29,853 nt of DNA from a virus. Below the pieces are notes generated by a model, which saw only the letters and a program-made list of their open reading frames with translations, did no database searches and was not told the origin of the DNA. Below are positions 1-18,295 of this stretch, piece by piece. Position 1 is the first letter of the stretch, and every line of letters begins with the position of its first letter. The stretch is taken from positions 1 through 29,853 of the IMG/VR virus record IMGVR_UViG_3300020021_000041. The stretch is one strand, 5' to 3'. The translations under genes were made by a program, and so were the position numbers.

Positions 1-71
1 GGACCCATCTGGGTCTCGCCGGAACCCGACGCGGCACGCCGCGAATCGGAATTGCTTGCTTCACTACCCAT
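1..71 (-). CDS. Start of a leftward gene cut by the window edge
   Basis: An ATG at 71 on the minus strand is preceded by a good Shine-Dalgarno GGAGG nine bases upstream, and the frame stays open to the window edge. Only about 23 residues are visible, rich in Ser, Gly and Ala (beginning MGSEASNSDSRR). It is the next gene in the leftward structural operon, 18 bases after the stop of the small virion-like gene. Nothing here identifies the product. Confidence 0.6.
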   Translation of the reverse strand, partial: MGSEASNSDSRRAASGSGETQMG

Positions 72-89
72 GACGGCATACCTCCAGAG

Positions 90-545: not shown

Positions 546-550
546 GATCT

Positions 551-1030: not shown

Positions 1031-1031
1031 C

Positions 1032-1064
1032 GAATAGTCCCCACGGTACACGTGAGGACTATTC
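1032..1064 (-). promoter_or_regulatory. Hairpin covering the HNH gene's ribosome binding site
   Basis: Bases 1032-1045 and 1051-1064 form a 14-bp stem, complete if one G-U pair is counted, around a 5-base loop. On the leftward transcript the 3' arm contains the GUGGGGA Shine-Dalgarno, and the stem ends one base before the AUG of the HNH gene. The 5' arm starts nine bases after the capsid stop codon. No U-tract follows, so a terminator is unlikely. Stem-loops that hide the ribosome binding site of homing endonuclease genes are established in phage T4 (I-TevI); the same use here is inferred. Confidence 0.8.
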
Positions 1065-1072
1065 TAAACCTC

Positions 1073-2068: not shown

Positions 2069-2086
2069 GGTGGCTCTCCGAAAGGC

Positions 2087-3274
2087 TTAATGGATTCGTC
2101 GACCGAAGTTCCGTCGCTCTTGCTGCTGCCGAACAATGTCGGCTGGGCTCAGCGCAGGTTCTTCGTCCGATGCGTGTGTGGCACTACTGGCCGTCGATGT
2201 GTTCGGCAGGCCGCGCTTGCGCTCAAGGACCGCATCGCGGGAGTTGCTGAACTTGTTCTGTCCCCATTCGCATGCATCGCGGGCGACATCCACCGCAAGA
2301 CGATTTGCATTCTGCGGGAGCTTCATGAGTTCCTTGCACTTTTCCCACGTAGCGACTTTCGCGACGGGGTCGTTGCAGATCTCAGGAAATTCCGCGATCG
2401 CCATCCGGTTGATGCTGTCGTTGATCGCCTGTGTAATGGCGTCAGTGACGGTTGCGGTGGTCCGAGGCTGCGCGGCGGCTGGCTGGGTTTCGACCCGCTC
2501 CTGTGCCTGACGATCGGTCAATACCTGCCCCTGCGATCGCGCGGTCTTGAGGACTTCGAGTAGCGCGCCTTTGGCCGCTCCCTCATCCCCGGAGTAGATC
2601 TGTGCCGCCAGACGAGCGGCTTGTGCCTCTAACTCTGCATCGGATGCGCCGGCCACGTTGCGTGGCTGACCCGTCGGTGCAACGGGTCCGGGGGCTGGTC
2701 CACCTTGGACCGGGCTGGGTTGCCCTGTGGCTCCTGTCGGACGGGCGGATTCTTGCAGTTCCCGACGCTGCCGCGCCAGATCCTGCTGTCCTCTCGCGAG
2801 AGCCAGTGCCTCGGCGTCCAGTTCGCGCTTGCGGCGATAACCCTCCTCGCCTCCCGCTCGATCCAAGTCCGCCTTGGTGACACTGACCGTGTTGCCGTCC
2901 TTGAGCTGGATGCTAACGTAACCATTTTCTTCACGCAAGGGTTTTGCGGGTACCGGTGCACGGTCCAGATTCTGGATCGGAATGCGTCCACTGGCCGCCT
3001 CGGCTTCCAGTGCCTTCACCTGTTCGGGCGTGAGGGCTGCGGTCGCGCCGGGTTCGCCACCGGCTTCCACGTCGCGCTGTTCGTCGCGCTGCTTGATCGC
3101 GCTGGCGTAGATCGCCTTGCGCTGATCGAGCGGGCTGGAGCGCGGTACCGGCGTCAACTCGTCGCCTTTGGCCACGCGTGTGTCGGTGCCTTTGGACAGG
3201 TCAGATTTTTCCCGCGCTGCGGCTTCGACGATCGCCTTGTCGGCCGGGCTTAGTGTGGTTTCACGCTCGCTCAT
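2087..3274 (-). CDS. Scaffold-like head assembly protein
   Basis: A 395-residue hydrophilic protein, rich in Glu, Ala, Arg and Gln, with long stretches expected to form helix or coiled coil (roughly residues 135-175, RRKRELDAEALALARGQQ and on). A Pro/Gly-rich linker follows near 180-210. A highly charged, helical, low-complexity protein between portal and major capsid genes is the signature of an internal scaffold, which guides capsid assembly and then leaves. Two starts are possible. ATG at 3280 has AAGGA directly against it; ATG at 3274 has it six bases upstream and is preferred. No protease motif is seen. Scaffold is inferred from position and composition. Confidence 0.65.
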   Translation of the reverse strand: MSERETTLSPADKAIVEAAAREKSDLSKGTDTRVAKGDELTPVPRSSPLDQRKAIYASAIKQRDEQRDVEAGGEPGATAALTPEQVKALEAEAASGRIPIQNLDRAPVPAKPLREENGYVSIQLKDGNTVSVTKADLDRAGGEEGYRRKRELDAEALALARGQQDLARQRRELQESARPTGATGQPSPVQGGPAPGPVAPTGQPRNVAGASDAELEAQAARLAAQIYSGDEGAAKGALLEVLKTARSQGQVLTDRQAQERVETQPAAAQPRTTATVTDAITQAINDSINRMAIAEFPEICNDPVAKVATWEKCKELMKLPQNANRLAVDVARDACEWGQNKFSNSRDAVLERKRGLPNTSTASSATHASDEEPALSPADIVRQQQERRNFGRRIH

Positions 3275-3276
3275 GG

Positions 3277-6121: not shown

Positions 6122-6704
6122 GGCGGCGATTCCCCTGTCGAATCTCGATGATGTGGCCCTTGCCTTGGGTGCCGATGACAGTACCGGTGCCGTCGGCCAG
6201 TGCTTGTTCGATTTCCACGCGCTTGGTGAAGCGGGTGGCCTTCATGTCGCTGACATCCGGGATCGCGTCGCCGCGCGAGTTGCGCAGGATAGCCGTCATG
6301 TGGACAGCCTTGTAGACGGTACCGGGATACTTGAAGCGACGCAGCAGTTCGCGCCCGGCGCGGATAGCCTCTTTGCGCTTGGGGTCGTTGATGATATCCG
6401 GGTAACGGATGCGGTAGCCCCATCGTTCGGAGAAGTCCAGACAGAAGATATTGAACACGTGGCCAAACTCGTCGGGCTGCACGGCCCAACGGAAGCCCGG
6501 CATTTTCTTGGTCAAGAGATCGGCGATGTCCTTGACGATGATGTGGGTCGACGCATGCAGGCCGTTCAAATCGTTGTGATCGACCACGAAACCTTCGGGT
6601 TCGCCATTCGGATCAAAGCCGGTCAGTGAGTTGCCAATGCCCTTTTCCTTGACCATCTGCTTGACGGCAAGCAGGGCGCGCTCGTGGTTGGTTTGCTTAC
6701 TCAT
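6114..6704 (-). CDS. Hypothetical protein upstream of portal
   Basis: A 196-residue soluble protein, mixed alpha/beta in appearance, with no motif I recognise. Features include a GFRWAVQPDEFGHVFNIFCLDFS segment and many basic residues at the C-terminus. ATG at 6704 is preferred over the upstream TTG at 6719. It overlaps the preceding small gene by 8 bases and the portal start by 8 bases, so it is translated as part of the head operon. Position next to the portal suggests a virion or head-assembly role, but this is inference only. Confidence 0.6.
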   Translation of the reverse strand: MSKQTNHERALLAVKQMVKEKGIGNSLTGFDPNGEPEGFVVDHNDLNGLHASTHIIVKDIADLLTKKMPGFRWAVQPDEFGHVFNIFCLDFSERWGYRIRYPDIINDPKRKEAIRAGRELLRRFKYPGTVYKAVHMTAILRNSRGDAIPDVSDMKATRFTKRVEIEQALADGTGTVIGTQGKGHIIEIRQGNRRRD

Positions 6705-6849
6705 TGTCGGTCCAGCCAAAGAAAAGGTGGCGGAAAGTTTTGACAGGATGACGCATCGCTATCGACGCATGCACGTAGCGCCAGCCATGACTGACCATCC
6801 ACACGCGTGGTCCGTGACCATAGTCAGTGAGTTCGCGTGAGATCTTCAT
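6697..6849 (-). CDS. Small hypothetical protein (50 aa)
   Basis: The start ATG at 6849 shares its A with the TGA of the preceding gene (TGATG), and the stop lies inside the start of the next gene. This gives tight coupling on both sides. The product is basic and aromatic-rich (MKISRELTDYGHGPRVWMVS). No domain is recognisable. Confidence 0.55.
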   Translation of the reverse strand: MKISRELTDYGHGPRVWMVSHGWRYVHASIAMRHPVKTFRHLFFGWTDNE

Positions 6850-7112
6850 CACCCACCCCAGTCTGGCGATTGTGGATTCCAAGCGTAGGGCAGGTATTCG
6901 ACGAACAGCCGCACGCCGCCGTAGCTGTTGGAGGTGTGCAGCTCCGTGCCGTCGCGCAGGATGATGTAATCCGGCGCGGCACCACCAAAGGAATAGACCA
7001 CCGGGTAACGCACGGCCGGATCCAGCTCTTCGACCAGATCCGCCAGCGTGAATACCCGCGGCGGTGGCACGGGTGGCGGGAAGCCGATGACATCGTTTTG
7101 ACTGTAGGTCAT
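6849..7112 (-). CDS. Small hypothetical protein (87 aa)
   Basis: An 87-residue protein with an N-terminal Pro-rich patch (FPPPVPPPRVFTLADL), then an acidic segment and an aromatic C-terminus ending in DWGG. It starts two bases after the stop of the preceding gene and ends in a TGATG overlap with the next. No family is recognised; membership in the head operon is the only context. Confidence 0.6.
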   Translation of the reverse strand: MTYSQNDVIGFPPPVPPPRVFTLADLVEELDPAVRYPVVYSFGGAAPDYIILRDGTELHTSNSYGGVRLFVEYLPYAWNPQSPDWGG

Positions 7113-7113
7113 G

Positions 7114-7335
7114 TCATTGTCCGTCCACGTAACGCGCGGGTTCTTGTCGATCGTCAGCGCGGGCGCCCATGTGCAACGCCAGTTCGGCCTGACTCATCTT
7201 CGGCAGTGCGTGGACTTCCACGGCCTGCGTGTTCAATCGAAACTCCTGTCCCGCGTACAGGAGCTTCGATTGCTTGCCGATCCGGACTTCACACGCGTCC
7301 GGGCCGTCGTTGCGCACTACTACGGAAGCGCCCAT
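7114..7335 (-). CDS. Small hypothetical protein (73 aa)
   Basis: A 73-residue protein beginning MGASVVVRNDGPDACEVRIG, followed by several short beta-like stretches. Its ATG overlaps the TGA of the preceding Lys-rich gene in a TGATG junction. No recognisable domain; a small beta-rich virion or accessory protein is possible. Confidence 0.55.
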   Translation of the reverse strand: MGASVVVRNDGPDACEVRIGKQSKLLYAGQEFRLNTQAVEVHALPKMSQAELALHMGARADDRQEPARYVDGQ

Positions 7336-7475
7336 CAGTAACCTGTGAACTTCACGCCATGTTTCTTGGCGACACGCTTGTCGTTCTTCGTGTCTTCCGC
7401 GTAGGCGCGCTTCACGGCCCCCGGCTTGCTGGTGGGCTTGGCCACAAACTCTTTTTTGGGTGGCTGCTTTTTCAT
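7335..7475 (-). CDS. Short lysine-rich protein (46 aa)
   Basis: ATG at 7475 is preferred over an upstream in-frame start at 7592, because the upstream start would overlap the preceding gene by more than 100 bases. The 46-residue product is highly basic (MKKQPPKKEFVAKPTSKPGA and on). With the Lys/Glu-rich gene just upstream it forms a pair of very charged small proteins beside terminase. The ribosome binding site is weak. Confidence 0.5.
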   Translation of the reverse strand: MKKQPPKKEFVAKPTSKPGAVKRAYAEDTKNDKRVAKKHGVKFTGY

Positions 7476-7479
7476 GGCA

Positions 7480-7812
7480 TCACTTACCGTGATAGTTTGG
7501 TCCGCCCTTGGCAGCACCTTCGGCACGGGCGATATTTCCAATGACACCGCCCGGCACGCCCCTCGCTTCGAGCTGCTTGGCACGGCCGCCATGACCCAGT
7601 GCGTTCGACTTGCCCTCGAAGGATCCGGAGTGTTTTATACCCCCTTCCTTCTCCTCGGCATCTTTGGTGCGCTTCTCGGGTTTCTTGCCGGCATCTTTGC
7701 GACCTTCACCCTTTTCACGGTGAGCACCCTTTTCTTCGACTTTTTCATCCTTCTTCTCCTCACGCCCATGACGGGCATCGAGCTTGGCTCGCATCGCTTT
7801 TTCGTCGCGCAT
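7480..7812 (-). CDS. Highly charged Lys/Glu-rich protein (110 aa)
   Basis: The first 60 residues are mostly Lys, Glu, Arg and Asp with little hydrophobic content, so they are probably disordered or a single charged helix. A Gly-rich C-terminal part (GGRAKQLEARGVPGGVIGN) follows. A strong ribosome binding site (GGAGGGGA) precedes ATG at 7812. It lies between terminase and portal. Such proteins in head operons sometimes bind DNA or are packaged, but nothing here proves that. Confidence 0.65.
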   Translation of the reverse strand: MRDEKAMRAKLDARHGREEKKDEKVEEKGAHREKGEGRKDAGKKPEKRTKDAEEKEGGIKHSGSFEGKSNALGHGGRAKQLEARGVPGGVIGNIARAEGAAKGGPNYHGK

Positions 7813-7864
7813 GATCTTCCCCTCCGGGGTGAGTTGTGGTACGGCAGGATGGTACGGGTGGATT

Positions 7865-9382
7865 CTAAACTAATTCTGGCTCCGCAAACCCCTGTCCCTG
7901 TCCCCCGGCTGACGGCGTGAGGAACCAGAACGTGTTGGCCAGCGCATCGGCCTTGTTCGGCGAACGCAGCCCGCGGACGGCCATCTCTGCCTTGGGCTCC
8001 AGCAGCATGCGGTCGGAGGTCTTGTGGTTGCGGAACTTCGGGTAGCACAGCTCTTCGGCCAGCTCCTGATCGTCCGGGATGTCGGCGGTAGGTAGCCACT
8101 CGCGCATGCGGCTCCAGCACGTGGTACGCATGTTGGCGTACCGCTTGGCGTCCTCGGGGTCGTTCGGGCGCATGCCGGCCTGCACATCGACGATCTGCCG
8201 GCCAAAGCCGCGGCGACGCAGATTGTCGATCACCGGGCCACCAATGCCCACGCCGTCGACGAACACCAGATCCGGTTGCCATTCGTTGATTTCGCGCACA
8301 ATGAAGTCGACCGAGATCATGGTGTCGCGCTCGGACCACTGCTTGATGGCCTTGTGGACCTTGCGGCCCTGCCGCTTGAGGCACACGGACAGATCCTTGC
8401 CGCCACGGGCCAGATCGACGCCCATCAGGCGCGGCACCACGCGGGGGATGTAACGCCACTCGATGTCGGTCTCGATCGCCTGCTGCACGCGCTCGCTGTC
8501 GATGAACGTGCTGGTGGCCTGCGCAGGGAAGCGCCCGTAGATATGGATCTTGCAGAAGTCCGACTCGGCACCGTACATGTCGATCCACTTCTGGATCTCT
8601 TTTTTGTTGGCAAAGGTCACATGCCGGGCGTCGACGCGGAAGGTGTGCCAGATCGAACGGTGACGATTGTGGGTGTCGAAGAACCCACCCTCGTTTTCGC
8701 TGGGATTGCCGAAGGCGAAGAACAGCACGAGGCCGGTGGTCATGGCGCCTTCGATCACATCCCAGATCGAAGCGGCGATACCCGAGGCTTCGTCGAAGAT
8801 GACCAACACGTACTTCTCGTGCGTGCCGGCGAAGGCTTGGGGATTGGAGTCGGACCATGGTGTGGCGACAGCGGCCCATGTCTCAGGCATGTCGCGGTGC
8901 TTGTACTTGGTGGCGGTCCACTCGAACTGCCATCCGTTGATGGCCAGATCCTGCCACTTGCGCAGCTCGCGCCACGTCTTGTTGGACAGCTGCGCCTCGG
9001 TCGATGCCGTGACGACAGCTTCGGAGTTCGGGAACACCGACTCGAACCAGTGGATCACCCACGCCACAAGGCAGGTCTTGCCGACGCCGTTGCCGGCCGC
9101 TGTGGAAAAGCGGATCACCCGGTTGGCAATGTCATGCGGTGAGAGGTCGGTGCGCTGCAATTCGTCTTGCAGGTCCATCAACCAGTCTTTTTGCCATAGC
9201 TCGGGGACGCGATGCTCCAGCGGGGAGTCTTCCACGCCCCATGGGTAGCAGGTCAACACCCAGTCCCATGGCCGGAATTTGTACGACAGGATCCACTCTG
9301 CGTACTTCACCGCCTGCACCGGATCGAGTGCCGGCCGGGTCAGCCCAAACTGCTGACGCCATGGGATCTTGAGTGCTTCCAT
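7865..9382 (-). CDS. terL: Terminase large subunit
   Basis: A 505-residue DNA packaging motor with both expected domains. The ATPase part has a Walker A loop, AAGNGVGKT (residues 95-103), and a Walker B strand, VLVIFDEA (192-199), with the catalytic Glu. A coupling-motif-like FFAFGNPSEN follows at 221-230. The RNase H-like nuclease part has MGVDLARGGKD (Asp323), LVFVDGVGIGG (Asp376) and SPNKADAL (Asp479), the metal-binding acids that cut concatemeric DNA. Length is normal for the family. The ATG overlaps the stop of the preceding gene (TAATG). No small subunit is adjacent; a candidate lies far away on the other strand at 21.4 kb. Confidence 0.95.
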   Translation of the reverse strand: MEALKIPWRQQFGLTRPALDPVQAVKYAEWILSYKFRPWDWVLTCYPWGVEDSPLEHRVPELWQKDWLMDLQDELQRTDLSPHDIANRVIRFSTAAGNGVGKTCLVAWVIHWFESVFPNSEAVVTASTEAQLSNKTWRELRKWQDLAINGWQFEWTATKYKHRDMPETWAAVATPWSDSNPQAFAGTHEKYVLVIFDEASGIAASIWDVIEGAMTTGLVLFFAFGNPSENEGGFFDTHNRHRSIWHTFRVDARHVTFANKKEIQKWIDMYGAESDFCKIHIYGRFPAQATSTFIDSERVQQAIETDIEWRYIPRVVPRLMGVDLARGGKDLSVCLKRQGRKVHKAIKQWSERDTMISVDFIVREINEWQPDLVFVDGVGIGGPVIDNLRRRGFGRQIVDVQAGMRPNDPEDAKRYANMRTTCWSRMREWLPTADIPDDQELAEELCYPKFRNHKTSDRMLLEPKAEMAVRGLRSPNKADALANTFWFLTPSAGGQGQGFAEPELV

Positions 9383-9588
9383 TACAGCGCGTGTGAGATG
9401 ACGGCCAACAGGCCGATGATCACCAGAATGCCGATGACCAGCTGGATCGCGTGATGCTTCTTGCCGTCCGCTTCGAGCTTGGCCACAGCGGCAAGGATGG
9501 AGGCTTCGACCTTTTGCACATCACTCTTGACAGCGGTTGCGGTATCTGGATCGGTTCCGGTTGTTGCCAATGGAGGTACAGTAGCCAT
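9382..9588 (-). CDS. Tail-anchored small membrane protein (68 aa)
   Basis: A hydrophilic N-terminal 45 residues, including a short helical part around 22-40, is followed by one clear membrane segment at about 47-66 (AIQLVIGILVIIGLLAVISH). GGGAGAA eight bases upstream supports the start. It ends in a TAATG overlap with the large terminase. Holin or other lysis roles are possible for small phage membrane proteins, but a single C-terminal segment without further motifs does not decide it. Confidence 0.7.
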   Translation of the reverse strand: MATVPPLATTGTDPDTATAVKSDVQKVEASILAAVAKLEADGKKHHAIQLVIGILVIIGLLAVISHAL

Positions 9589-9590
9589 GA

Positions 9591-9869
9591 TTATTCTCCC
9601 TTGTGGTCGCCATCGGAGATGGCTTTGGCGATTTCATACTGCATCACTTGAACACCACCCAGTAGCGTCGTCATCGACCCCATGGGTGTCACGCAAAACT
9701 CAGCCACACGACTGTCCTTGGTGTAATAGCACACCGCGTAGGACTCAATATTGCCTTCCTCTGCCTGCTGAAGCATATCGCGTAACTCCTTCAGGTCGCG
9801 CAGCTCCATCACTAGTGGCCTGATCATGGCGCCTTTCATGTCGATGATGTTGCTGGGCTTGTCAGTCAC
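9591..9869 (-). CDS. Hypothetical protein (92 aa)
   Basis: The start is a GTG at 9869 with GGAG seven bases upstream, overlapping the end of the preceding gene by 8 bases. The protein is soluble, with a helical N-terminal half (ELRDLKELRDMLQQAEEG) and a beta-like middle (ESYAVCYYTKDSRVAEFCVT). No known family is recognised. Confidence 0.65.
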   Translation of the reverse strand: MTDKPSNIIDMKGAMIRPLVMELRDLKELRDMLQQAEEGNIESYAVCYYTKDSRVAEFCVTPMGSMTTLLGGVQVMQYEIAKAISDGDHKGE

Positions 9870-10137
9870 TGATCAGCTCCAGACCGTCGTAGTTCTTGTC
9901 GTGAAGCGCATCATGCGTGGCGATCGACATGATGCCAATCGTCTCGCCCTTGTTGAAGTGACTGCCGAATGGATATCTGGATACATAGCCATCCACAGCA
10001 AGTAGTAGCACGCCCATGTGAATGGGCTGCTGGCACTTTTCCACAAAGGTGGCAAGGTGCCGTAGCTTCTCGGCCATCTCCTTGTTGTCGGACGCCCGGT
10101 TGGTCAGGCCGTTGACGAGGCTTACGATATCACCCAT
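9862..10137 (-). CDS. Hypothetical protein (91 aa)
   Basis: ATG at 10137 with GGGAGAAA upstream is chosen over a longer in-frame start. The product is soluble and helical near the N-terminus (MGDIVSLVNGLTNRASDNKE) with a hydrophobic GVLLLAVDGYV centre. It sits in a chain of overlapping small genes and overlaps both neighbours by 8 bases. Function unknown. Confidence 0.6.
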   Translation of the reverse strand: MGDIVSLVNGLTNRASDNKEMAEKLRHLATFVEKCQQPIHMGVLLLAVDGYVSRYPFGSHFNKGETIGIMSIATHDALHDKNYDGLELISD

Positions 10138-10567
10138 CGCTTTTCTCCCATTCAAAAAACTGGAACAGCCGGGCAATGGTTGCGTCCAAGTCGACCAGCG
10201 CCTCTTTGGTTTTAGCGTCGTAAGCCGGATACAGTATCAATCGGTGTATGTGGCCAATGTGTCCACGGTCCCGAAAGGACGCAGCGCGTTCGGCCGTCCA
10301 GAATCCTTGCGGCATGGGCTCATGCATCAAGGGATTGTCAGGTAGATCACGCACCGGACCACCATCCCAGATGCCACGGATGTACGTCGGCTCTGGCTTG
10401 GTTTGCTGGATGACTGCTGGCTTGAACACTTTCATCCAGCGCGGCCGGCGCGGATAGAACACGAGGTAGATCCAGTTGGGTGCTTGCCATTGCACCCACT
10501 GGATCGTGGCGTCCTCGTGATCCTCCAGCCAATGAGCTGCCTTATATAGCATGGTCGACAAATGCAT
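10130..10567 (-). CDS. Hypothetical protein (145 aa)
   Basis: ATG at 10567 shares bases with the TGA of the preceding gene (TGATG), and AAGGAG lies seven bases upstream. The protein is rich in Trp, His and Pro in its first half (WVQWQAPNWIYLVFYPRR) and ends in a charged helix. No domain is recognised. Overlaps on both sides show it belongs to the same transcript as terminase. Confidence 0.6.
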   Translation of the reverse strand: MHLSTMLYKAAHWLEDHEDATIQWVQWQAPNWIYLVFYPRRPRWMKVFKPAVIQQTKPEPTYIRGIWDGGPVRDLPDNPLMHEPMPQGFWTAERAASFRDRGHIGHIHRLILYPAYDAKTKEALVDLDATIARLFQFFEWEKSDG

Positions 10568-10785
10568 CACAGCTCCTTGGCTCCGTGTTGTTTGCGGTAC
10601 TGCGATTCGTCGAACCGCTTACGGCCAGCTCGACTCTTCTCGCCGTACAGCCAGCGCAGCTGTTCTTCCAAGCGCGCGTTGGCGGCGGCACGTAGCCGCT
10701 TCTCCTTGGCAGTGCGCCGAACGATGATCAACAGGGTGATCAGGAATGGCAACACGAAAGTGAGAATGGCGACGAGTAGTTTCAT
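10567..10785 (-). CDS. Small N-anchored membrane protein (72 aa)
   Basis: One membrane segment at residues 2-24 (LLVAILTFVLPFLITLLIIV) is followed by a very basic helical tail (RRTAKEKRLRAAANARLEEQ). The positive charge after the segment suggests that the C-terminus stays in the cytoplasm. GGGGA upstream and an ATGA overlap with the preceding gene support the start at 10785. Function unknown. Confidence 0.65.
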   Translation of the reverse strand: MKLLVAILTFVLPFLITLLIIVRRTAKEKRLRAAANARLEEQLRWLYGEKSRAGRKRFDESQYRKQHGAKEL

Positions 10786-11366
10786 GGCTTGATTTCCCCG
10801 CGCTCTTGTGCGGCCTTGCGCAGCTCCGCTTCCATCAAGTGCTTCTGTACTGCGGTCAGCTCGCAACGCATGGTGGCCACTTCATCGGAGCACCGACGTT
10901 GCTGTCGACCCATGCTATTGCAGTCACGCACCAGTGTATCAACCGCCGTCTTCAGGTATTCACTATCACGCAATCGTCTGCGAATAGCATCGACACGCTT
11001 GGTGTTGACATCAATGAGATTACATAGACTTTTGAAGTCGTTCCCATCGCGCACATCGCGCTCATCAATGCGCTTGATGATGCTCTTGACCATGGCAGTC
11101 AACCCTTCGGATGTGTCGGGGATATAGCCCGGTCCGAAGTCAGGTCGCTTGTGCACCGCATACGGTGGAACCTTCACCACGTCGCCCGGTCCAGCTTTGA
11201 ACATCGCCTCGGTAGCTGCTCGGCCAGCGTCATAGCCGCGCCCGTAGTCAGCGGCCTTGTCCGACTCCGTGCGGATGGTGTGACGGAAGCGCCACGAGTA
11301 CAACACCATCAACCAGCCCACAAGGATGCCGTTGATGATGATCAGGAAGCCTTCCGTGGTGCTCAT
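10782..11366 (-). CDS. N-anchored helical membrane protein (194 aa)
   Basis: A membrane segment at about residues 6-23 (GFLIIINGILVGWLMVLY) is followed by a basic stretch and a long helical region with coiled-coil character (roughly 95-190). The positive-inside rule places the C-terminal part in the cytoplasm, unlike an Rz-type spanin. AGGAA upstream and an ATGA overlap support the start. It may form a pair with the next gene, also N-anchored. No family recognised. Confidence 0.65.
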   Translation of the reverse strand: MSTTEGFLIIINGILVGWLMVLYSWRFRHTIRTESDKAADYGRGYDAGRAATEAMFKAGPGDVVKVPPYAVHKRPDFGPGYIPDTSEGLTAMVKSIIKRIDERDVRDGNDFKSLCNLIDVNTKRVDAIRRRLRDSEYLKTAVDTLVRDCNSMGRQQRRCSDEVATMRCELTAVQKHLMEAELRKAAQERGEIKP

Positions 11367-11698
11367 GACCCGTTCCTTTTGGACATGCCGGTATAGCCCT
11401 CGCGACGGCGCTGTTCATCGCGAGCTTGCTGCTTTTCCAGCAGTCGCTGGTGGTCAGCCGCCCGGGTGTCGTGGTTGGCGTGACGCTCCTTGACACGGAT
11501 CTGGTCGATCCCGTAAAGCGACTCGACATGCAATCCATTGTGACCTTCCTCGACCAGCTTGATGTCATAGCGGATGGTGCCGTCGTTCAGGAAGTGCACG
11601 CCAATGACGTTGCCCTCCTGTGGCTCAAAGCCATTGAGTGAACCGACGTAGACAGGACTCCCCATTTGAAAGCGGCACGGTAGCGTTCCATTTCCCAT
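11363..11698 (-). CDS. Hypothetical protein (111 aa)
   Basis: ATG at 11698 has AGGGAGAA six bases upstream and is chosen over an earlier in-frame start. The N-terminal two thirds look like a small beta barrel (FQMGSPVYVGSLNGFEPQEG, then IRYDIKLVEEG). The last third is a charged helix (RLLEKQQARDEQRRREG). Function unknown; it is linked by ATGA to the following membrane protein. Confidence 0.65.
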   Translation of the reverse strand: MGNGTLPCRFQMGSPVYVGSLNGFEPQEGNVIGVHFLNDGTIRYDIKLVEEGHNGLHVESLYGIDQIRVKERHANHDTRAADHQRLLEKQQARDEQRRREGYTGMSKRNGS

Positions 11699-11806
11699 TG
11701 CGTTCTCCCTGCTCACCCACACTGGGTGGCTTCAGAGTCCCCGGTGGCCCCCGGGTCGGCCCACGCTGTGCGTTAACTACACAGTCCGTCGCCGAGGCTT
11801 CCCTCT

Positions 11807-12217
11807 CTACTCGCGGGTTGTTCGATGGCGTTCTTCGGCGATCCTACGAATCTCTTCCAGCCGGGCGAGTCCCGCTTGGGCATTGCTGCGCTCATCCTCG
11901 CTGTTCTTGGGAAACTCGATGCCGGCCTTGCGCAAGATCACCGCCAGATCCGCCATGGTCACCCACTCAGCCTTGGCCGTACCGGTCTGGTACGGCATCC
12001 ACTCGCAGTATTGGGCGTCGTCCGGTGCCTTGTCGCCTTCCTGCACCAGCGGCACCCCGGTCGCCGGGTGCGGCGAGCCATAGGGATCGATGGTCATCAG
12101 GTTGACCTTACGGTCGGTGTGCACGTAAGTGATCGTCGCAGCCCATGGCTGGTTGGTCACGGCACCGTGGTCGCGCGGATAAAACAACACAACGCGTCCA
12201 ACGCTTGGCTTGATCAT
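11807..12217 (-). CDS. Hypothetical protein (136 aa)
   Basis: A 136-residue soluble protein starting MIKPSVGRVVLFYPRD. The first 50 residues look beta-rich, and the C-terminus (about 95-136) is a charged helix. GAGGACA upstream supports ATG at 12217. Gene-free stretches of about 110 and 175 bases lie on either side, so it may form its own unit under the promoter-like motif at 12.36 kb. No family recognised. Confidence 0.65.
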   Translation of the reverse strand: MIKPSVGRVVLFYPRDHGAVTNQPWAATITYVHTDRKVNLMTIDPYGSPHPATGVPLVQEGDKAPDDAQYCEWMPYQTGTAKAEWVTMADLAVILRKAGIEFPKNSEDERSNAQAGLARLEEIRRIAEERHRTTRE

Positions 12218-12353
12218 CAGGGTTGTCCTCGGATGTGAAGGTGAACCGGTTACGTCTCCGGTGACTGGAAGGTCAGTCGCTCTTCAGCAGGCCGATGCTT
12301 CGTGTCCGTGCGCGTGGCAACCAACATCCGAGGTGATGGGCCGCCACGCGGTG

Positions 12354-12389
12354 TGTAGGTATAGTCTACCGATGTGTGAGTGTTTGCAA
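12354..12389. promoter_or_regulatory. Recurrent TGTAGGTATA site, copy 1, with a leftward promoter-like context
   Basis: TGTAGGTATA is exact at 12354-12363 on the plus strand, and GTAG/CTAC around it makes it partly symmetric. On the minus strand TTGCAA (12389-12384), a TCACAC box and an AT-rich -10-like region face the gene at 12217. The spacing of 19-20 to CTATAC or TATACC is not ideal. It lies in the gap between two leftward genes, so it could be an internal promoter or an operator. Confidence 0.45.
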
Positions 12390-12392
12390 GTG

Positions 12393-12587
12393 CTATCGAT
12401 GCAGCAGCGTGGTGACGTACGTGTCCCCCGACAGCCACACGATCGCCCACGCCAGCGCCAGCAAGAGGATCGCCAGCCAGCCGTACGTGACGTTGTGGCC
12501 CGCGGGCGGCGGGACGTTGAACGCGGCCTTGTAGAGGAACACGAAGGCCAGCACCAGAAGGATCAGGACAAGAATGGTCAGTAGCAT
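12393..12587 (-). CDS. Two-segment small membrane protein (64 aa), holin-like size
   Basis: Two membrane segments are clear at about residues 2-18 and 36-53, joined by a short loop with Pro and Gly. GGGAGA upstream supports ATG at 12587. A 64-residue protein with two segments fits class II holins in size and topology. No lysin or other lysis gene is adjacent, so the role is open. Confidence 0.65.
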   Translation of the reverse strand: MLLTILVLILLVLAFVFLYKAAFNVPPPAGHNVTYGWLAILLLALAWAIVWLSGDTYVTTLLHR

Positions 12588-12653
12588 CACTTATCTCCCG
12601 TCAAGGGCGTCACCCGGGGCCGGGCGCGCGGTGTAGCGTCAGCGGAAAAAGCG

Positions 12654-13178
12654 TCAATCCAGCGGCGCCGCTTGTGTGAGCTTCAGCTCGGCCGGGATCG
12701 CGTCGCCGGGCACGATCAGCACGAAGTTCGGTGTACCGTCACTCGCCGCCGACGGTTCGCGCAACCGATCCTGCACCTTCGCCAGCGTGCCGAACAACCA
12801 ATACTTCCCATACGGCACCTTGCTGCTGGACTCACTCTCATGCATGAGCCAAGCCCGCTGGCCCGCCTCGTTCTGAAACTGGTACTTACTGAACTGGGTG
12901 GTAGAGGTATTGGTCTCGGCCAAAATATTTTTTTCCAAGGCAGAGTTCGGACTCTCATGGGCCGGAAAAATCGGGCCTAAACCCGTCTTCTGTGGCGCCG
13001 ATTGTGCGTGCTCAAGCCCCTTTATGTCCGATCCCACAATATTCGTCGTATCGGGGTTTTGTGGCTCTGACCGAAACTCACGAGTAGCAGGAGCATGCAT
13101 GTCACTGGGTGATGCACTTACATGCAGTGGTGCGTTGGTGGGTATCTGGATGGTGTCGTCGGCTTTGACTGTGGTCAC
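12654..13178 (-). CDS. Hypothetical low-complexity protein (174 aa)
   Basis: The GTG start at 13178 overlaps the preceding stop (GTGA) and has AGGAGA seven bases upstream. The first 90 residues are rich in Ser, Thr, Pro and Asn and probably disordered. The last 80 look folded (KYWLFGTLAKVQDRLREPSA; then NFVLIVPGDAIPAELKL). The mid part is locally AT-rich compared with its neighbours. Function unknown. Confidence 0.6.
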   Translation of the reverse strand: MTTVKADDTIQIPTNAPLHVSASPSDMHAPATREFRSEPQNPDTTNIVGSDIKGLEHAQSAPQKTGLGPIFPAHESPNSALEKNILAETNTSTTQFSKYQFQNEAGQRAWLMHESESSSKVPYGKYWLFGTLAKVQDRLREPSAASDGTPNFVLIVPGDAIPAELKLTQAAPLD

Positions 13179-13537
13179 GGCTTGTCTCCTATGAGGTCTG
13201 CAAAGCTCACCCGGCTGGGTTGAGCTGGTGTCACGGACTCATTATCTATAGGTGCTGCATTCAGTGCGTTAATAGCGGCGTCATCCGCTGCCTTGATGTC
13301 GGCCTGTGGTGGTGGGCGCTTCAGGTGGCGTGGCGTCTGGTCGCCAAACACCGCGCGCCACTCTTCATGGTAGCGATAAGCGGTTGACTTGTTCACGCCG
13401 AACCGGTGCATCAGCTCTTTGGGCGTCCAGCGGCCACCGCGCAACAGTGCCCAGCGCACGATCATCAGCATCTTTACTGTACTGGACTTGCCGTTGAGTT
13501 CACTATGTCGGCCGGGTTTGAGCTTTGGGCGTGTCAT
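13175..13537 (-). CDS. Helix-turn-helix protein A
   Basis: A 120-residue protein with a basic N-terminus (MTRPKLKPGRHSELNGKSST) and a helix-turn-helix at about residues 36-64, ending KSTAYRYHEEW. The C-terminal half is Pro/Ala-rich and probably flexible. The motif closely matches that of the next upstream gene, so the two look like paralogues. ATG at 13537 lacks a strong ribosome binding site; a GGAGG lies 15 bases upstream in the preceding gene's end. It probably binds DNA as a regulator or packaging accessory; the target is unknown. Confidence 0.65.
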   Translation of the reverse strand: MTRPKLKPGRHSELNGKSSTVKMLMIVRWALLRGGRWTPKELMHRFGVNKSTAYRYHEEWRAVFGDQTPRHLKRPPPQADIKAADDAAINALNAAPIDNESVTPAQPSRVSFADLIGDKP

Positions 13538-13544
13538 GGCGTGT

Positions 13545-13784
13545 CTATTTTGCCTCCTGCGTGAAATCTGAGCGACTCGCTGGGGGTGAGTGCACCAGAA
13601 TCGAACCGTAGTGGTCATCCCACAACTGCAAATAGCGATAAGCCGTGGCCCGGTGGCACTCAAACCGGGCGATCACTTGAGCTGCCGTGGGTCGTTGCTT
13701 ACGTGTATCGAACCAGCGCACCAGCTCCAGCGCACGGCAAAAGCAATGCATACGACCAATTACTGTACTGGACGAATGTGGCAT
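13545..13784 (-). CDS. Helix-turn-helix protein B
   Basis: A 79-residue protein with a helix-turn-helix (RPTAAQVIARFECHRATAYR, continuing YLQLWDDHYG) that aligns with the downstream protein A over SSTV...LVRW...RF..(H/N)..TAYRY...W....G. The start is uncertain: ATG 13784 keeps the shared SSTV segment, while ATG 13751 would remove it. Neither has a strong ribosome binding site. It is the first gene after the parS-containing gap and could regulate that region, but this is inference. Confidence 0.55.
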   Translation of the reverse strand: MPHSSSTVIGRMHCFCRALELVRWFDTRKQRPTAAQVIARFECHRATAYRYLQLWDDHYGSILVHSPPASRSDFTQEAK

Positions 13785-13889
13785 TTGGTGGATATAACCC
13801 CGGGAATTCTGGCACCTGAAACAGCAAGAATGAGGCTGGGCCTCACTTCGATTCGATGTGTTACTTCACATATGGCAGTACAGTAATTG
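13755..13889. repeat. Inverted pair of CAGTACAGTAATTG 14-mers
   Basis: CAGTACAGTAATTG occurs on the minus strand within 13755-13773 and again on the plus strand within 13873-13889, facing the opposite way about 100 bases apart. Each copy is itself partly symmetric (CCA..TGG and GGCA..TGCC ends). A third, shorter copy (CAGTACAGTAAA) lies inside gene A near 13472-13483. The sites flank the start of HTH gene B, so they are candidate operators. Confidence 0.55.
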
Positions 13890-14012
13890 CCATCCATGGC
13901 CCTGAATGCTGTGGAACGCTGATGTTTCACGTGGAACAACAGCTATTCGCGTACACCCTGCGCCGGTGCGATAAGCGCGGCCAGAGTGCCTGTCTCTCTC
14001 TCGCGATTGCGG
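13785..14012. other. Gene-free control region with a parS match
   Basis: No convincing gene is seen here. The stretch holds a small hairpin at 13831-13845 (TGAGGC, TGG, GCCTCA) that could act as a weak leftward terminator. It also holds one of the inverted 14-mers and a 16-base parS-like palindrome at 13923-13938. It separates the first part of the leftward operon from the helix-turn-helix pair. Confidence 0.6.
13923..13938. promoter_or_regulatory. parS-like site (ParB binding palindrome)
   Basis: TGTTTCACGTGGAACA matches the bacterial chromosomal parS palindrome TGTT(T/C)CACGTG(A/G)AACA at every position; only the fifth and twelfth bases break perfect symmetry. parS is bound by the chromosome partition protein ParB, which then spreads and slides on DNA. 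No parA or parB gene is visible in the window, so host ParB would be the expected partner. The function for the phage is unknown. Confidence 0.75.
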
Positions 14013-14258
14013 CTAAAACCAGCTGCACACTGGGTTGCGACGTGCTGTCGTTGTTCTCGTAGCGCAGCACAGGGCTATCAGAATTAACCCCGCCACGAGC
14101 CACGGCCAGCCAATGCAGGCCACAACGAGAACAGGCAGGACGAAGAGCAACGCTATCAGTAGGCGTCGAGTGGAGTAGAGAGAGGTGAGGATGCGCCCGT
14201 GGGTCAATCCGAATCGAGCCACATCGGCTTCATGGTCACGCTGCATTTGCGTTTGCAT
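14013..14258 (-). CDS. Two-segment small membrane protein (81 aa)
   Basis: A polar N-terminal 30 residues is followed by two adjacent hydrophobic segments (about 33-50 and 52-66) and a basic tail. It starts four bases after the previous gene, with a short AGG close to the ATG. Size and topology would fit a holin or other membrane-active phage protein. The ribosome binding site is weak and no lysis partner is nearby. Confidence 0.5.
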   Translation of the reverse strand: MQTQMQRDHEADVARFGLTHGRILTSLYSTRRLLIALLFVLPVLVVACIGWPWLVAGLILIALCCATRTTTARRNPVCSWF

Positions 14259-14262
14259 GAGC

Positions 14263-14562
14263 CTACACCGTGCCGGTGGGGACACACTTGATGCCGGTCG
14301 AGGCATCCGCTTTGCGCTTGGCGATAAGCGCATCAACCTCTGAGCGGGGAAACGGGCGGCCATCGGCGTACTGCCAGCTGACATCGATCCCCATCGTTTC
14401 CATGTCTTCCGCGTCGAGGTTTTTGACCAGCGTATACCCGGTCGCCGGCCATAGCTTGCCGTCCTTGTCGATATACACACACAGGACCAGCTTCGCCGGC
14501 ATGCTCACGGGAAGCGCGATGTGTTTTACCGCCTGTGGCTCGATGGGTGAAATCTTGTCCAT
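14263..14562 (-). CDS. Hypothetical protein (99 aa)
   Basis: A soluble 99-residue protein with beta-like stretches (ALPVSMPAKLVLCVYIDKDG) and a charged helix near 73-88 (RSEVDALIAKRKADAST). AAGGGA ten bases upstream supports ATG at 14562. It lies in an unbroken run of short leftward genes. No family recognised. Confidence 0.6.
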   Translation of the reverse strand: MDKISPIEPQAVKHIALPVSMPAKLVLCVYIDKDGKLWPATGYTLVKNLDAEDMETMGIDVSWQYADGRPFPRSEVDALIAKRKADASTGIKCVPTGTV

Positions 14563-14568
14563 TGGTGC

Positions 14569-14892
14569 TTATCCCTTGGCTTGAGTGAGGTTTGTACTGC
14601 GAGTGGCCGTTGGTGTGCGTGCCAGTTTCGTTAAGGTCTTGCGTTTGAAGGCCGGGTGGCTGGGGTCTGAGCCGTTGTAACGCAGTTGACCCGCATTGAT
14701 CGGCCGTGGCCGTGGTGCCCGCGACTGGATCATGACCACGCGTGATTTGAGGTCCAATAGGTCAGCCGGCGCCGGCAGCATGTCAAACGCTTCACGAATC
14801 GCCTTGAGTGGCCAGCCGTGCTTGAGGTGCAACTGCCTCAGCGTCACGTGCTCTTCACCCAGCATGAAACGGGGGTTGGCTGGCTTAGTCAT
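14569..14892 (-). CDS. Hypothetical basic protein (107 aa)
   Basis: ATG at 14892 forms an ATGA overlap with the VRR-NUC gene. The N-terminal half contains a possible helix-turn-helix-like stretch (EEHVTLRQLHLKHGWPLKAI). The C-terminal half is very basic with many Arg, Lys and Thr. DNA or RNA binding is plausible from charge but not shown by a clear motif. Confidence 0.6.
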   Translation of the reverse strand: MTKPANPRFMLGEEHVTLRQLHLKHGWPLKAIREAFDMLPAPADLLDLKSRVVMIQSRAPRPRPINAGQLRYNGSDPSHPAFKRKTLTKLARTPTATRSTNLTQAKG

Positions 14893-15389
14893 GGTCCTAC
14901 ACCTTTGGCGGGCGCATCGTAGTGCACCCAATTGGGCCGGATGTACTTGCCGGCCATGTAATCGCCGATGATGCGCAATGCCTCGTCAACGCTGTCTGCC
15001 CACGTGGCCAGATAACCGTCTTCGCCCATGTCGCGGGCAAACTCCAGTTGTTTGGGTTTGGGCGTTTCACCGGACTTTTTCAGCTCCAGAAACAGGCCAT
15101 GCCAGCCACCGCGTGCGCCCGGTATGAACAGGTCAGCCGCCCCCGCACGCTTGCCCATCTTCGCTTGGATCGCGTGGCCTACACGCGTGCGCTTCGATTC
15201 ATTGGAGATGTGGAACGCGTGCCGTGCCTCATCCTTGCGCAGCTTGCACCACGCAATGACGGTGATTTGAATGTCGGTTTCACTGGGATGGAGCACTACA
15301 CGAGCGCCAGCTTTTGGCGTGATGTGGTTGCCCTTGCTGTCGATCCGCGCCGACAATAGGCCACACTCGAATAAACGCTTATTTTCCAT
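14889..15389 (-). CDS. VRR-NUC family nuclease
   Basis: A 166-residue stand-alone VRR-NUC domain of the PD-(D/E)xK nuclease superfamily. Residues 79-120 carry the core: GKRAGAADLFIPGARGGWHG with Asp87, LFLELKKSG with Glu102 and Lys104, and KPKQLEFARD with Gln114. In phages such proteins are often annotated as Holliday-junction or structure-specific nucleases. ATG at 15389 follows the preceding stop by four bases, so re-initiation is likely. It is the second gene of the leftward operon, far from the replication genes on the other strand. Confidence 0.85.
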   Translation of the reverse strand: MENKRLFECGLLSARIDSKGNHITPKAGARVVLHPSETDIQITVIAWCKLRKDEARHAFHISNESKRTRVGHAIQAKMGKRAGAADLFIPGARGGWHGLFLELKKSGETPKPKQLEFARDMGEDGYLATWADSVDEALRIIGDYMAGKYIRPNWVHYDAPAKGVGP

Positions 15390-15393
15390 GGAC

Positions 15394-15618
15394 TTACGCA
15401 GTTCCACGCTGACGCTTGCGACCACGCGAACCGCCCGTGGGCTGGTTGGGGCTGGGCGTTTGCACTGCGCCGAGCCCATCCGTGATCCTGACTTTGATCG
15501 GCGGCGGCATGCCATGCAGGCGTGGCGCCAGACCGGGCAGCTTTGGCGGGTTATCGCGCACTTTTTCAGGCTTGCCGATATTGCCTGAAATGGCGCTGGG
15601 TGGGGCTTTGTTGGCCAT
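15394..15618 (-). CDS. First gene of the leftward block, hypothetical (74 aa)
   Basis: ATG at 15618 has GAGG seven bases upstream, whereas the nearby ATG at 15624 would be too close. The protein is rich in Pro, Gly, Lys and Arg, with little predicted structure (GKPEKVRDNPPKLPGLAPRL). It ends four bases before the VRR-NUC start. No domain is recognised. It marks the 5' end of the leftward operon. Confidence 0.55.
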   Translation of the reverse strand: MANKAPPSAISGNIGKPEKVRDNPPKLPGLAPRLHGMPPPIKVRITDGLGAVQTPSPNQPTGGSRGRKRQRGTA

Positions 15619-15922
15619 CGTCATGCCTCGTGTGCGTGGCTGGGTCTGTAGGTTCCGATTCTACTCTTGTTTCATCCCTTGGGAATGAACTAACTGAACG
15701 CCAGTTAACTATATGAAACGGATTGCATATGAACTATCACACATGTAGGTATAGCCCTGATATGATGCACTCAACGCGAAACGCGCCGGACACCTCGCCT
15801 TTGGATGGCGACCACACCCGGGTCACTCGATCCTTTCCAATCAGGGCAACCCACACACAAGGCTTTCAAGCCATGTGCATGCAGCTCGCGTGCATATGAC
15901 TGGACAACCGGAGGAGAACGTT
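15619..15922. promoter_or_regulatory. Divergent control region between the two gene blocks
   Basis: About 300 bases without a gene. It contains a palindrome TAACTG-5-CAGTTA at 15691-15707 and a leftward TATAGT -10 candidate at 15713-15708 with no good -35. A recurrent TGTAGGTATA site lies at 15744-15753, facing the rightward genes, and a degenerate copy (TGTAGGTT, 15647-15654) sits near the leftward start. A long rightward leader follows with small inverted repeats (for example ATGCA/TGCAT near 15880-15898). The two operons probably start here. Confidence 0.6.
15737..15755 (+). promoter_or_regulatory. Recurrent TGTAGGTATA promoter/operator site, copy 2
   Basis: TCACAC, one base, then TGTAGGTATA with TATAGC as the likely -10 box at 15750-15755. 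A -35 at normal distance is poor (TTGCAT lies 21 bases away), so an activator or other sigma contact may be needed. It precedes the first rightward gene by about 170 bases. Confidence 0.55.
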
Positions 15923-16234
15923 ATGAATGGTCGGCGTAGGAAAGAATTGGAAGTGATCAAGTCTCGCTATTCCGCTCTGTACATTGAGCTGATGGCACTG
16001 GGTGGCAAGTTCGATGACCTGCGTGGAGAGCTTGGCAACATCATGGATGAGGAACAGGAAAGTTACGACAGCCGCACGGAAAACTCGCAGTTGAGCGAGA
16101 GCGGTCAGCAATCAGAACAGGCGGTTGAATATCTACAGGAGGCGTTGGCATTGATTGAAGCGATCGTGGAGACGTGCGAAGCCAGTGATGAAACTGAATT
16201 CCACGAGGCTATTGATAACGCACAAGGCAACTGA
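15923..16234 (+). CDS. Small coiled-coil protein (103 aa)
   Basis: A strong GGAGGAGAA seven bases upstream fixes ATG at 15923. The protein is almost wholly helical and acidic, with a basic start (MNGRRRKELEVIKSRYSALY) and heptad-like spacing through residues 8-45 and 65-85. Small helical proteins of this general form (basic start, E/Q-rich middle, paired helices) are common in phage early regions and usually annotated as hypothetical. No enzyme motif is present. As the first rightward gene it is probably expressed early. Confidence 0.75.
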   Translation: MNGRRRKELEVIKSRYSALYIELMALGGKFDDLRGELGNIMDEEQESYDSRTENSQLSESGQQSEQAVEYLQEALALIEAIVETCEASDETEFHEAIDNAQGN

Positions 16235-16241
16235 TTCAAGC

Positions 16242-16267
16242 ACAACGCATTGGCAACAGTGCGTTGT
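16242..16267 (+). other. Intergenic hairpin 1
   Basis: ACAACGCA and TGCGTTGT form an 8-bp stem around a 10-base loop between two early genes. No U-run follows, so processing or mRNA stabilisation is as likely as termination. Confidence 0.5.
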
Positions 16268-16290
16268 ACTGGACTCACGAGGAGAACGTC

Positions 16291-16524
16291 ATGGCTCACT
16301 TTTACGGAACAGTTCAAGGCTCACGCGGCACAGCATCGCGGATGGGCGGCAAAGTTAGTGGCATCACTACTCAGGCCGCTGGCTGGGGTGGATGCATCGA
16401 GACACACACGTGGCATGACGAGGCCACAGGCAAAGACATGTACCGCGTGGAGCTGACACCGTGGCGCGGTAGCGGAGGCAATATCACCACGCTCGCAGAA
16501 GGTGAGTTGAGGGCCGTTGAATGA
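16291..16524 (+). CDS. Conserved small phage protein, MAHFYG type (77 aa)
   Basis: It starts MAHFYGTVQGSRGTASRMGG, a pattern I recognise from a widespread family of small phage and mobile-element proteins of unknown function. The rest is beta-like with conserved Trp and Thr (WGGCIETHTWHDEATGKDMY; then ELTPWRG). GAGGAGAA upstream fixes the start. No catalytic motif. Confidence 0.75.
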   Translation: MAHFYGTVQGSRGTASRMGGKVSGITTQAAGWGGCIETHTWHDEATGKDMYRVELTPWRGSGGNITTLAEGELRAVE

Positions 16525-16573
16525 CACGCCACGATCTGCGCAACGCTTACCCATTCCACTATCGAGGTGACAC

Positions 16574-16777
16574 ATGGAAACCAACACGTTTGACGCTGGT
16601 GCGTTCATCCACGCATTCGAGACTGAGGAAATGGATAACGACACTGTTGTCGAGGGCTTTCAACAGCTGATTGACAGCGGCACGATTGAACATTTGCAGG
16701 GCACACACCAGCGCACTGCAAACGATCTGATGAATGCGGGCTTGTGCTGGCCGCGTGGCTGGAGGCATGCCGGCTGA
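16574..16777 (+). CDS. Conserved small phage protein (67 aa)
   Basis: A 67-residue protein with the pattern GFQQLIDSGTIEHLQGTHQR followed by LMNAGLCWP. This resembles a common small phage protein family (GFQxLIDxGxxxxLQGxxxRxAxxLIxxGxC) of unknown role. The ribosome binding site is GAGG, eight bases upstream. Next to the MAHFYG-type gene and the DUF932-like gene, it forms a familiar early accessory cluster. Confidence 0.7.
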   Translation: METNTFDAGAFIHAFETEEMDNDTVVEGFQQLIDSGTIEHLQGTHQRTANDLMNAGLCWPRGWRHAG

Positions 16778-16783
16778 TAAACA

Positions 16784-16815
16784 AGTATGGCCACTTGGTG
16801 ACAGGTGGCCATACT
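16784..16815 (+). other. Intergenic hairpin 2
   Basis: AGTATGGCCAC and GTGGCCATACT form a perfect 11-bp stem around a 10-base loop, followed by GGTTTATT. It starts six bases after the preceding stop. It could be a weak terminator or an RNA processing site. Confidence 0.6.
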
Positions 16816-16862
16816 GGTTTATTCAACGCACGCAAACCGCGTGCATCACACTGGAGTACGTT

Positions 16863-17846
16863 ATGCATCTCATTGACATGACCACCGGCAAGCCGGCCAT
16901 TGCGTTCACGGGTGAAAAGCCGTGGCATGGTCTTGGCACCGACATGGGCGCCAACAAGACATTACAGGATTGGCGCGAAGCGGCTGGGCTGGATTGGACG
17001 GCCAAAGAGTCAATCGTTCAATACAACGCCGAAACGAAACACGAGCTGTTGATTCCGAAAGCATTCGTTGATCGCAAGGTGCTGTATCGCAGCGACACGT
17101 TGTCGCCTTTGTCGGTGGTTGGCAAAGACTATCGCCCGGTGCAGCCGGGGCAGATCATCGAGTTCTACGATGAATTGTGCGAGCGGTACGGTTACGCCAT
17201 GGAGACCATGGGCTCGCTGAAGGATGGCAAGACCATCTGGGCGTTGGCTCAAACCGGACAGGGGCAGCTTATCGGTGGCGTTGATCTGGTCAAGGCATAC
17301 CTGTTGCTCTACACGAGCTTTGACGGTAGCTGCGCCACGACGGGAAAGTTTACTGATGTGCGCGTGGTCTGCAACAACACGCTAAGCATGGCACAAGGTC
17401 AAGGCGGCAAGGCTGTCACGGTTCGTCACAACGCCATGTTCGACGCCAGCAAGGTCAAAGCGGAGCTGGGCGTGGGTGCGGTATGGGAAGATCACAAAGC
17501 CCGGCTGGAATCGTTAGCACAAGCGAAGGTCACACCACAACAGCAAGTCAATTTCCTGTTGTCGGTTTATCACGACATGACCGCAAAGTCGATCGACGCG
17601 GAATCGCCGAAAGTGGCAAAGACCATGGAGCGGCTGGCCGGCATTCTGGCCAATGCACCGGGTTCGCAGATGAGCACCACAACCAACACGCTTTACGGCC
17701 TGTTGAACGCGGTCACATATGACGTGGATCACTCCATGCGTGCACGCAGCGATGATTCCCGTCTGTCCAGTGCGTGGATGGGTACGGGCGACCTGTTGAA
17801 AACCAAGGCGCTGGATACTGCCACCGCCATGCTGGAAACCGTTTAA
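16863..17846 (+). CDS. DUF932-like phage/plasmid protein
   Basis: A 327-residue protein with the family's start pattern (KPWHGLGTDMGANKTLQDWR) and a core around YRPVQPGQIIEFYDELCERY, then TTGKFTDVRVVCNNTLSMAQ. This matches the DUF932 or phage/plasmid-like protein family, common on mobile elements and without a proven activity. Full length, no break. GGAG six bases upstream supports ATG at 16863. It is the largest gene of the early cluster and is followed by a strong hairpin, so it may end a transcript segment. Confidence 0.85.
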   Translation: MHLIDMTTGKPAIAFTGEKPWHGLGTDMGANKTLQDWREAAGLDWTAKESIVQYNAETKHELLIPKAFVDRKVLYRSDTLSPLSVVGKDYRPVQPGQIIEFYDELCERYGYAMETMGSLKDGKTIWALAQTGQGQLIGGVDLVKAYLLLYTSFDGSCATTGKFTDVRVVCNNTLSMAQGQGGKAVTVRHNAMFDASKVKAELGVGAVWEDHKARLESLAQAKVTPQQQVNFLLSVYHDMTAKSIDAESPKVAKTMERLAGILANAPGSQMSTTTNTLYGLLNAVTYDVDHSMRARSDDSRLSSAWMGTGDLLKTKALDTATAMLETV

Positions 17847-17853
17847 TCAAATC

Positions 17854-17878
17854 ATGCCCCCTTTGGATAAGGGGGCAT
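17854..17878 (+). terminator. Hairpin after the DUF932-like gene
   Basis: ATGCCCCCTT and AAGGGGGCAT form a perfect 10-bp GC-rich stem around a 5-base loop. The following sequence CGTTGGTTT has only a weak U-tract, so it may be a leaky terminator or attenuator. Confidence 0.55.
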
Positions 17879-17903
17879 CGTTGGTTTAAGCGAGGAGAAT
17901 GCC

Positions 17904-18092
17904 GTGCGCAAAGATGTTTTTGAGGCAACCGTGAATCTATATAACTCGTGCATCAATGTAGCCGAGGCGAGTGCCCAACAGCACCACGTTCGCGGCGACT
18001 TGGCGCACGCTTTTTCATGTGAACATCTGGCCGATGAATTGCGCCACGTAGTTCATTCTTTTACCCATGCCGAAAATCCGGAATTACTGTAA
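17904..18092 (+). CDS. Small hypothetical protein (62 aa)
   Basis: GTG at 17904 has GAGGAGAA upstream. The protein is helical with several His and Cys residues (HHVRGDLAHAFSCEHLADEL), but they are not spaced like a known zinc site. It ends in a TAATG overlap with the next gene. Confidence 0.65.
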   Translation: MRKDVFEATVNLYNSCINVAEASAQQHHVRGDLAHAFSCEHLADELRHVVHSFTHAENPELL

Positions 18093-18295
18093 TGACCTAC
18101 AAGGCTGAGTTTTCACAGCATCGCAATGATATGCATTGGAAATTCTGGACTGGCAAAACGTTCGTGCGTTGGACTGGATACGATGACGCCAATTGGTGGC
18201 AAAACGTGTCTATGTCATCTAACGCACGCCAGCGATTGCAGGACGGAAAAACCTACACCATCAATTTCAATACGTGCGAGGTCACTGTTTCATGA
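18092..18295 (+). CDS. Small hypothetical protein (67 aa)
   Basis: A Trp-rich, beta-like small protein (MHWKFWTGKTFVRWTGYDDA). Its ATG overlaps the preceding TAA, and its TGA overlaps the next ATG, so three genes are coupled. No family recognised. Confidence 0.65.
   Translation: MTYKAEFSQHRNDMHWKFWTGKTFVRWTGYDDANWWQNVSMSSNARQRLQDGKTYTINFNTCEVTVS

Follow-up and report, generated by a model that had tools for sequence, protein, structure and literature searches.

The chromosomal ParB protein of many bacteria binds a 16-bp parS sequence, with the consensus TGTTYCACGTGRAACA, and spreads from a single site. The mobile element SGI1 has parS mimics and owes its stability to the ParABS system of its helper IncC plasmid (PMC10954446). 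ParABS systems of phages were described for P1 and for mycobacteriophage RedRock (PMC7157519); these phages encode their own ParA and ParB and use a different parS, which in RedRock consists of direct repeats of an 8-bp motif. In the lambda-parS (PMC13190303) and P22-parS (PMC8585504) systems, ParB supplied by the experimenter coats the infecting phage DNA; there the site is engineered, ParB is ectopic and the whole serves as a laboratory imaging tool.

We analysed a candidate parS site in a stretch of viral DNA of 29,853 bp, hereafter the window, which is a complete IMG/VR record and yet a fragment of a tailed-phage genome. The site has the same 16-bp consensus, with its free Y and R positions, as the bacterial chromosomal centromere of ParABS, and one such site is enough to nucleate a ParB complex, as the candidate might do here; unlike the chromosomal sites, it belongs to a phage record in which parA and parB are not detectable and it is not near a bacterial oriC. 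As in SGI1, a parS that belongs to another replicon sits on a mobile element which itself lacks par genes, but here the element is a phage and the proposed donor of ParB is the host chromosome. The resemblance to P1 and RedRock lies in the presence of a partition site on a phage genome, and that to lambda-parS and P22-parS in the proposed coating of phage DNA by ParB from parS during infection. Orphan host-type parS sites in phages are not reported in the literature searched, outside which lay preprints and most subscription papers; Livny et al. 2007, reportedly a survey of parS sites, may mention them. An orphan phage parS would be a case of parS mimicry, and the wider pattern that we describe is of more interest than the window site itself.

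Results

An exact parS site in a gene-free gap

The site and the features around it, in window coordinates, are the following.

13175-13663, minus strand: second small HTH protein gene
13474-13484, plus strand: third exact copy of TTACTGTACTG
13545-13784, minus strand: small HTH protein gene (HTH_IclR-like) beside the gap, with a homologue in the relative G001
13757-13770, plus strand: CAATTACTGTACTG, an operator-like repeat where the HTH gene starts
13785-14012, no strand assigned: non-coding gap of 228 bp that holds parS, from the ORF list
13876-13889, minus strand: operator-like repeat CAATTACTGTACTG, 33 bp from parS
13923-13938, no strand assigned: parS, TGTTTCACGTGGAACA (reverse strand TGTTCCACGTGAAACA), exact match
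14013-14258, minus strand: gene of a small membrane protein, at the far edge of the gap, with a homologue in the relative L122; start codon inferred from the sequence

A pattern scan of the window gave 0 mismatches between TGTTTCACGTGGAACA and the consensus, in agreement with the original prediction of a match at all 16 positions. The estimate that about 3 in 100,000 windows of this size would hold such a site by chance was also right, the expected number being 4 x 29838 / 4^16 = 2.8e-5 per window. The only other match in the window with at most three mismatches, at position 3981, is at chance level (chance mean 0.43). The gap, predicted to be free of genes, is bounded by the start codon of the HTH gene (13784) and the stop of the membrane-protein gene (14013), both genes reading leftward, and none of the relatives' proteins aligns significantly inside it. 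Its RNA fold does not go beyond that of shuffled sequences (z -0.74), and no tRNA was found in the window.

The copies of CAATTACTGTACTG at 13757 and 13876 make a perfect 14-bp inverted repeat. Exact TTACTGTACTG occurs three times near parS, at 13474, 13760 and 13876 (minus strand), and with at most one mismatch it occurs five times in the window against 0.15 expected; it is probably the operator of an HTH regulator. The label of control region given to this place is plausible because of these three copies, although no sigma-70-type promoter match was found in the region of the site. TTACTGTACTG is also present once in L122 (position 7247), near homologous HTH genes.

The window phage and its relatives

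Portal, major head protein and terminase are encoded in the left of the window, and SSB, topoisomerase, helicase and primase in the right. The relative G001 (59,416 bp), with a terminase 73% identical, is collinear with the window after circular permutation, and the window therefore holds about half of the phage genome. With the patterns used, relatives of the terminase (TerL) were not found in 84,980 species genomes, and tyrosine integrase was not detected in the window, in G001 or in the distant relative G008; a purely lytic phage is thus possible. We also observed that the portal ORF (window 3284-6121) overlaps an ORF at 3277-3876, on the same strand and in another frame, and that its similarity to G001 ends at residue 829 of 945, possibly by a frameshift or a gene overlap.

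A search for parS covered 47 whole records: the window plus 46 relatives by terminase. A site is present in three, namely the window, G001 and G008; all three are exact and none was found at one mismatch, while the reversed control pattern gave 0 matches in the same 47 records. The G001 site (9190-9205, TGTTCCACGTGGAACA) is inside an ORF that lies downstream of a pair of primase and zinc-protein genes, about 365 bp away; in the window phage, the corresponding place is expected just past the window end. In G008 the site (51020-51035, TGTTTCACGTGAAACA) lies where a 4172-aa ORF has a linker-like stretch (PPVSRETSG). The syntenic gap of G001 and of L125 has no parS, and the majority of the distant relatives are without any. 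The position is therefore not conserved in the window's group, with exact sites elsewhere in two relatives. The original prediction had proposed to look for the 16-mer at the same place in related phages: as to place it did not hold, G001 lacking the site there, but as to presence it did, G001 having an exact site elsewhere.

Two other matches were set aside. A two-mismatch match in L123 (9311) was dropped, being in a coding stretch (GQLFTWNT) of the capsid gene, and the 10-bp core TTTCACGTGG in L122 was not counted as a site since it is inside the coding sequence of an HTH ORF.

Absence of ParA and ParB

Neither ParB_N (PF02195) nor the ParA-type AAA_31 domain (PF13614) was found in the window, in G001, G006 and G008 or in a dozen further records, which bears out the prediction that parA and parB are not visible; neither G001 (59 kb) nor other relatives of 58-72 kb gave a match. 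No parA and parB pair was thus found on the same replicon in the visible half of the window phage, G001, G006 or G008. What the visible part of the genome and the near-complete relative do present is the ParB site of another replicon, without par genes of their own. More widely, a search for ParB_N at E <= 0.001 gave no match in 95 of 100 viral records that bear a site, many of them fragments.

Excess of parS across viral contigs

The exact 16-mer is present in at least 120 stretches of viral contigs, some of which may contain host DNA. Among three controls matched in composition, the reversed 16-mer gave 1 match, and two with permuted flanks and CACGTG kept gave 4 and 18. Taken at face value, no more than 1 to 15% of the exact viral matches would be due to chance, and a smaller share if the contigs hold more than 120 of them. 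When palindromes of the form N4-Y-CACGTG-R-N'4 were collected from 0.76 Mb of relatives' and control loci, we obtained only the three TGTT sites described above and the four selected controls; 1.06 Mb around parS matches yielded seven more sites, of other parS variants, and none from the other 255 flanks. Among the ORFs with a site are those of large terminase subunits, of portals, of a DNA polymerase and of a head morphogenesis protein, which indicates that many sites are in phage genes and not in host flanks; other sites are intergenic. One or two sites were counted in 20 of 24 matching records examined whole, in a set enriched for multi-site records, and one or two sites suffice to nucleate ParB.

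Larger numbers were also observed. G090, a viral record of 116.7 kb (that of locus L045), has 24 exact parS in two blocks at 91700-112396, many of them at gene junctions and in the extended form GATGTTTCACGTGGAACAT, and no ParB_N match. G062, a viral record of 169 kb (that of locus L017), also without a ParB_N match, has 12 exact sites at 9-18154 and 168792-169061; these surround both ends of the record and would therefore form one cluster if the genome is circular. In two loci, L009 (4096-5982) and L103 (150-1925), parS was seen within an HTVC008M-type adenylate/guanylate cyclase gene of a phage, where it codes for VPRETS; the two cyclase sequences are 54% identical. The cultured relative HTVC008M has a different sequence at this place and no parS there.

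Among 14 cultured phages, chosen as relatives of the queries used, one had a match: pelagiphage HTVC027P (MN698241.1), with the near-parS CGTTTCACGTGAAACA at 16412-16427, one mismatch, in an intergenic gap. Because the sample is small and chosen by relationship, these phages neither support nor refute the excess. A blastn comparison of the 16-mer alone with cultured phages returned no match, but this is uninformative, since a hit of such a length probably misses the E-value limit. The host of HTVC027P is known and this phage may serve as an experimental model.

Selection on the DNA in another phage group

In a large virion protein, L032 and L115 have parS at the same place, just past the transglycosylase domain, in two different variants, one coding for VPRET and the other for VSRET. 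Relatives of this group were gathered from viral contigs by a search for the transglycosylase domain whose peptide patterns lay clear of the site. An exact parS was found at that place, in the linker of the virion protein, in 54 of the 55 relatives where the region is complete. We then compared the codons of 43 distinct sequences, whose protein identity has a median of 81% and a minimum of 67%. The codons GTT (V), CGT (R), GAA and ACA (T) are invariant, whereas the one codon left varies between TCA and CCA (S or P), set exactly by the free Y of the consensus. The V, R and T codons were compared with 65 further conserved columns of four-fold or higher degeneracy, not one of which uses a single codon; residues and indels around the site vary. 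Since the parS codons are frozen and the other conserved columns are not, the constraint is on the DNA and not on the protein. ParB_N and tyrosine integrase were not found in the 19 records checked, from this group and HTVC027P, among them records of 61-63 kb. This selection is seen in the virion-gene group and not in the window's group; by analogy, it may apply to the window as well.

Discussion

We consider it likely that orphan host-type parS is a widespread and selected feature by which many unrelated phages devoid of ParA and ParB recruit host ParB onto viral DNA, and that such phages keep one or more copies of it, even within virion and replication genes. The presence in the window of a chromosomal-type ParB site without parAB, as had been proposed, is well supported by the excess of the 16-mer, by the exact sites of relatives and by the conservation at the DNA level in one group. 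Most likely, the window carries such a selected orphan site, which would load host ParB onto the phage DNA. The occurrence of such sites in many unrelated viruses, with one group under clear selection, points to phages making use of the host protein that recognises parS.

As to how the phage would profit, the main rival to partition is a decoy: parS copies of the replicating phage would titrate ParB, and through it ParA and SMC, off the chromosome and stall segregation or division to the advantage of the phage. Orphan arrays, with 24 exact sites in one record and 12 in another and no ParB, do exist, and the lifestyle may be lytic; nevertheless, most records have a single site, including the window as far as it is seen, and this would do little for titration unless the copy number is high. 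We hold this explanation to be unlikely. It is also rather doubtful that the site has a local role, in which ParB would spread over the HTH genes and the operator-like repeats and modulate or silence their transcription. Its place in the window in particular would suit such a role, since 33 bp separate it from one of the three exact TTACTGTACTG copies and it is upstream of the HTH gene by about 139 bp, and in Pseudomonas aeruginosa ParB is reported to repress promoters beside parS (PMC5521831). On the other hand, the sites of other phages are in unrelated genes, that of G001 is downstream of primase, and the region offers no sigma-70-type promoter match.

A functionless 16-mer that arose by accident in the window phage seems quite improbable to us. 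Relatives lack the site at the same place, the window is presumably one of many that were scanned and the 10-bp core also turns up in a coding region of L122, all of which would fit an accident; yet 2.8e-5 sites are expected per window, the control 16-mers leave a small share of the exact viral matches to chance and the near relative G001 has an exact site independently. The original prediction had further mentioned a phage-plasmid. Its own ParABS would then be encoded in the other half of the genome, and the site would be its own centromere. About half of the genome is visible in the window, but G001 (59 kb) gives this idea no support, neither it nor the other relatives of 58-72 kb having a ParB_N or AAA_31 match, and we find it very improbable.

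The reading that we favour, with confidence that is evenly balanced, is that of an orphan centromere: parS would be kept so that the chromosomal ParB of the host loads on the phage DNA and coats it. Host ParB would load at the phage parS as a CTP-dependent sliding clamp and would then coat the phage DNA; the phage genome, infecting or persisting, would be handled by the ParA/ParB machinery of the host and perhaps by SMC. The likely gain is that phage DNA would be held in position on the nucleoid, stay compact and be transmitted when the cell divides. We favour this reading because the sequence is that of a ParB site including its degeneracy, because records usually hold one or two sites and because SGI1 gives a precedent for parS mimicry. 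In addition, the place of the site is free between lineages and fixed within one, which argues for a function of the whole molecule and not of one promoter. We infer that the ParB of the window phage's host binds the site and that the phage benefits through partition or positioning, not through titration or silencing. Several points count against an orphan centromere: parS does not keep its position within the group of the window, the codon-level selection comes from another group, the single match among the 14 cultured phages has a mismatch, and partition would be of less obvious use to a purely lytic phage.

If a host centromere site is indeed maintained by selection in phages of many lineages, host ParB, known for its part in segregation, would also be a general partner of infecting phage DNA. 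The biology of ParB and CTP and the loading of SMC would then be linked to infection, and parS would be a marker, at the level of the sequence, of phages that engage host ParB.
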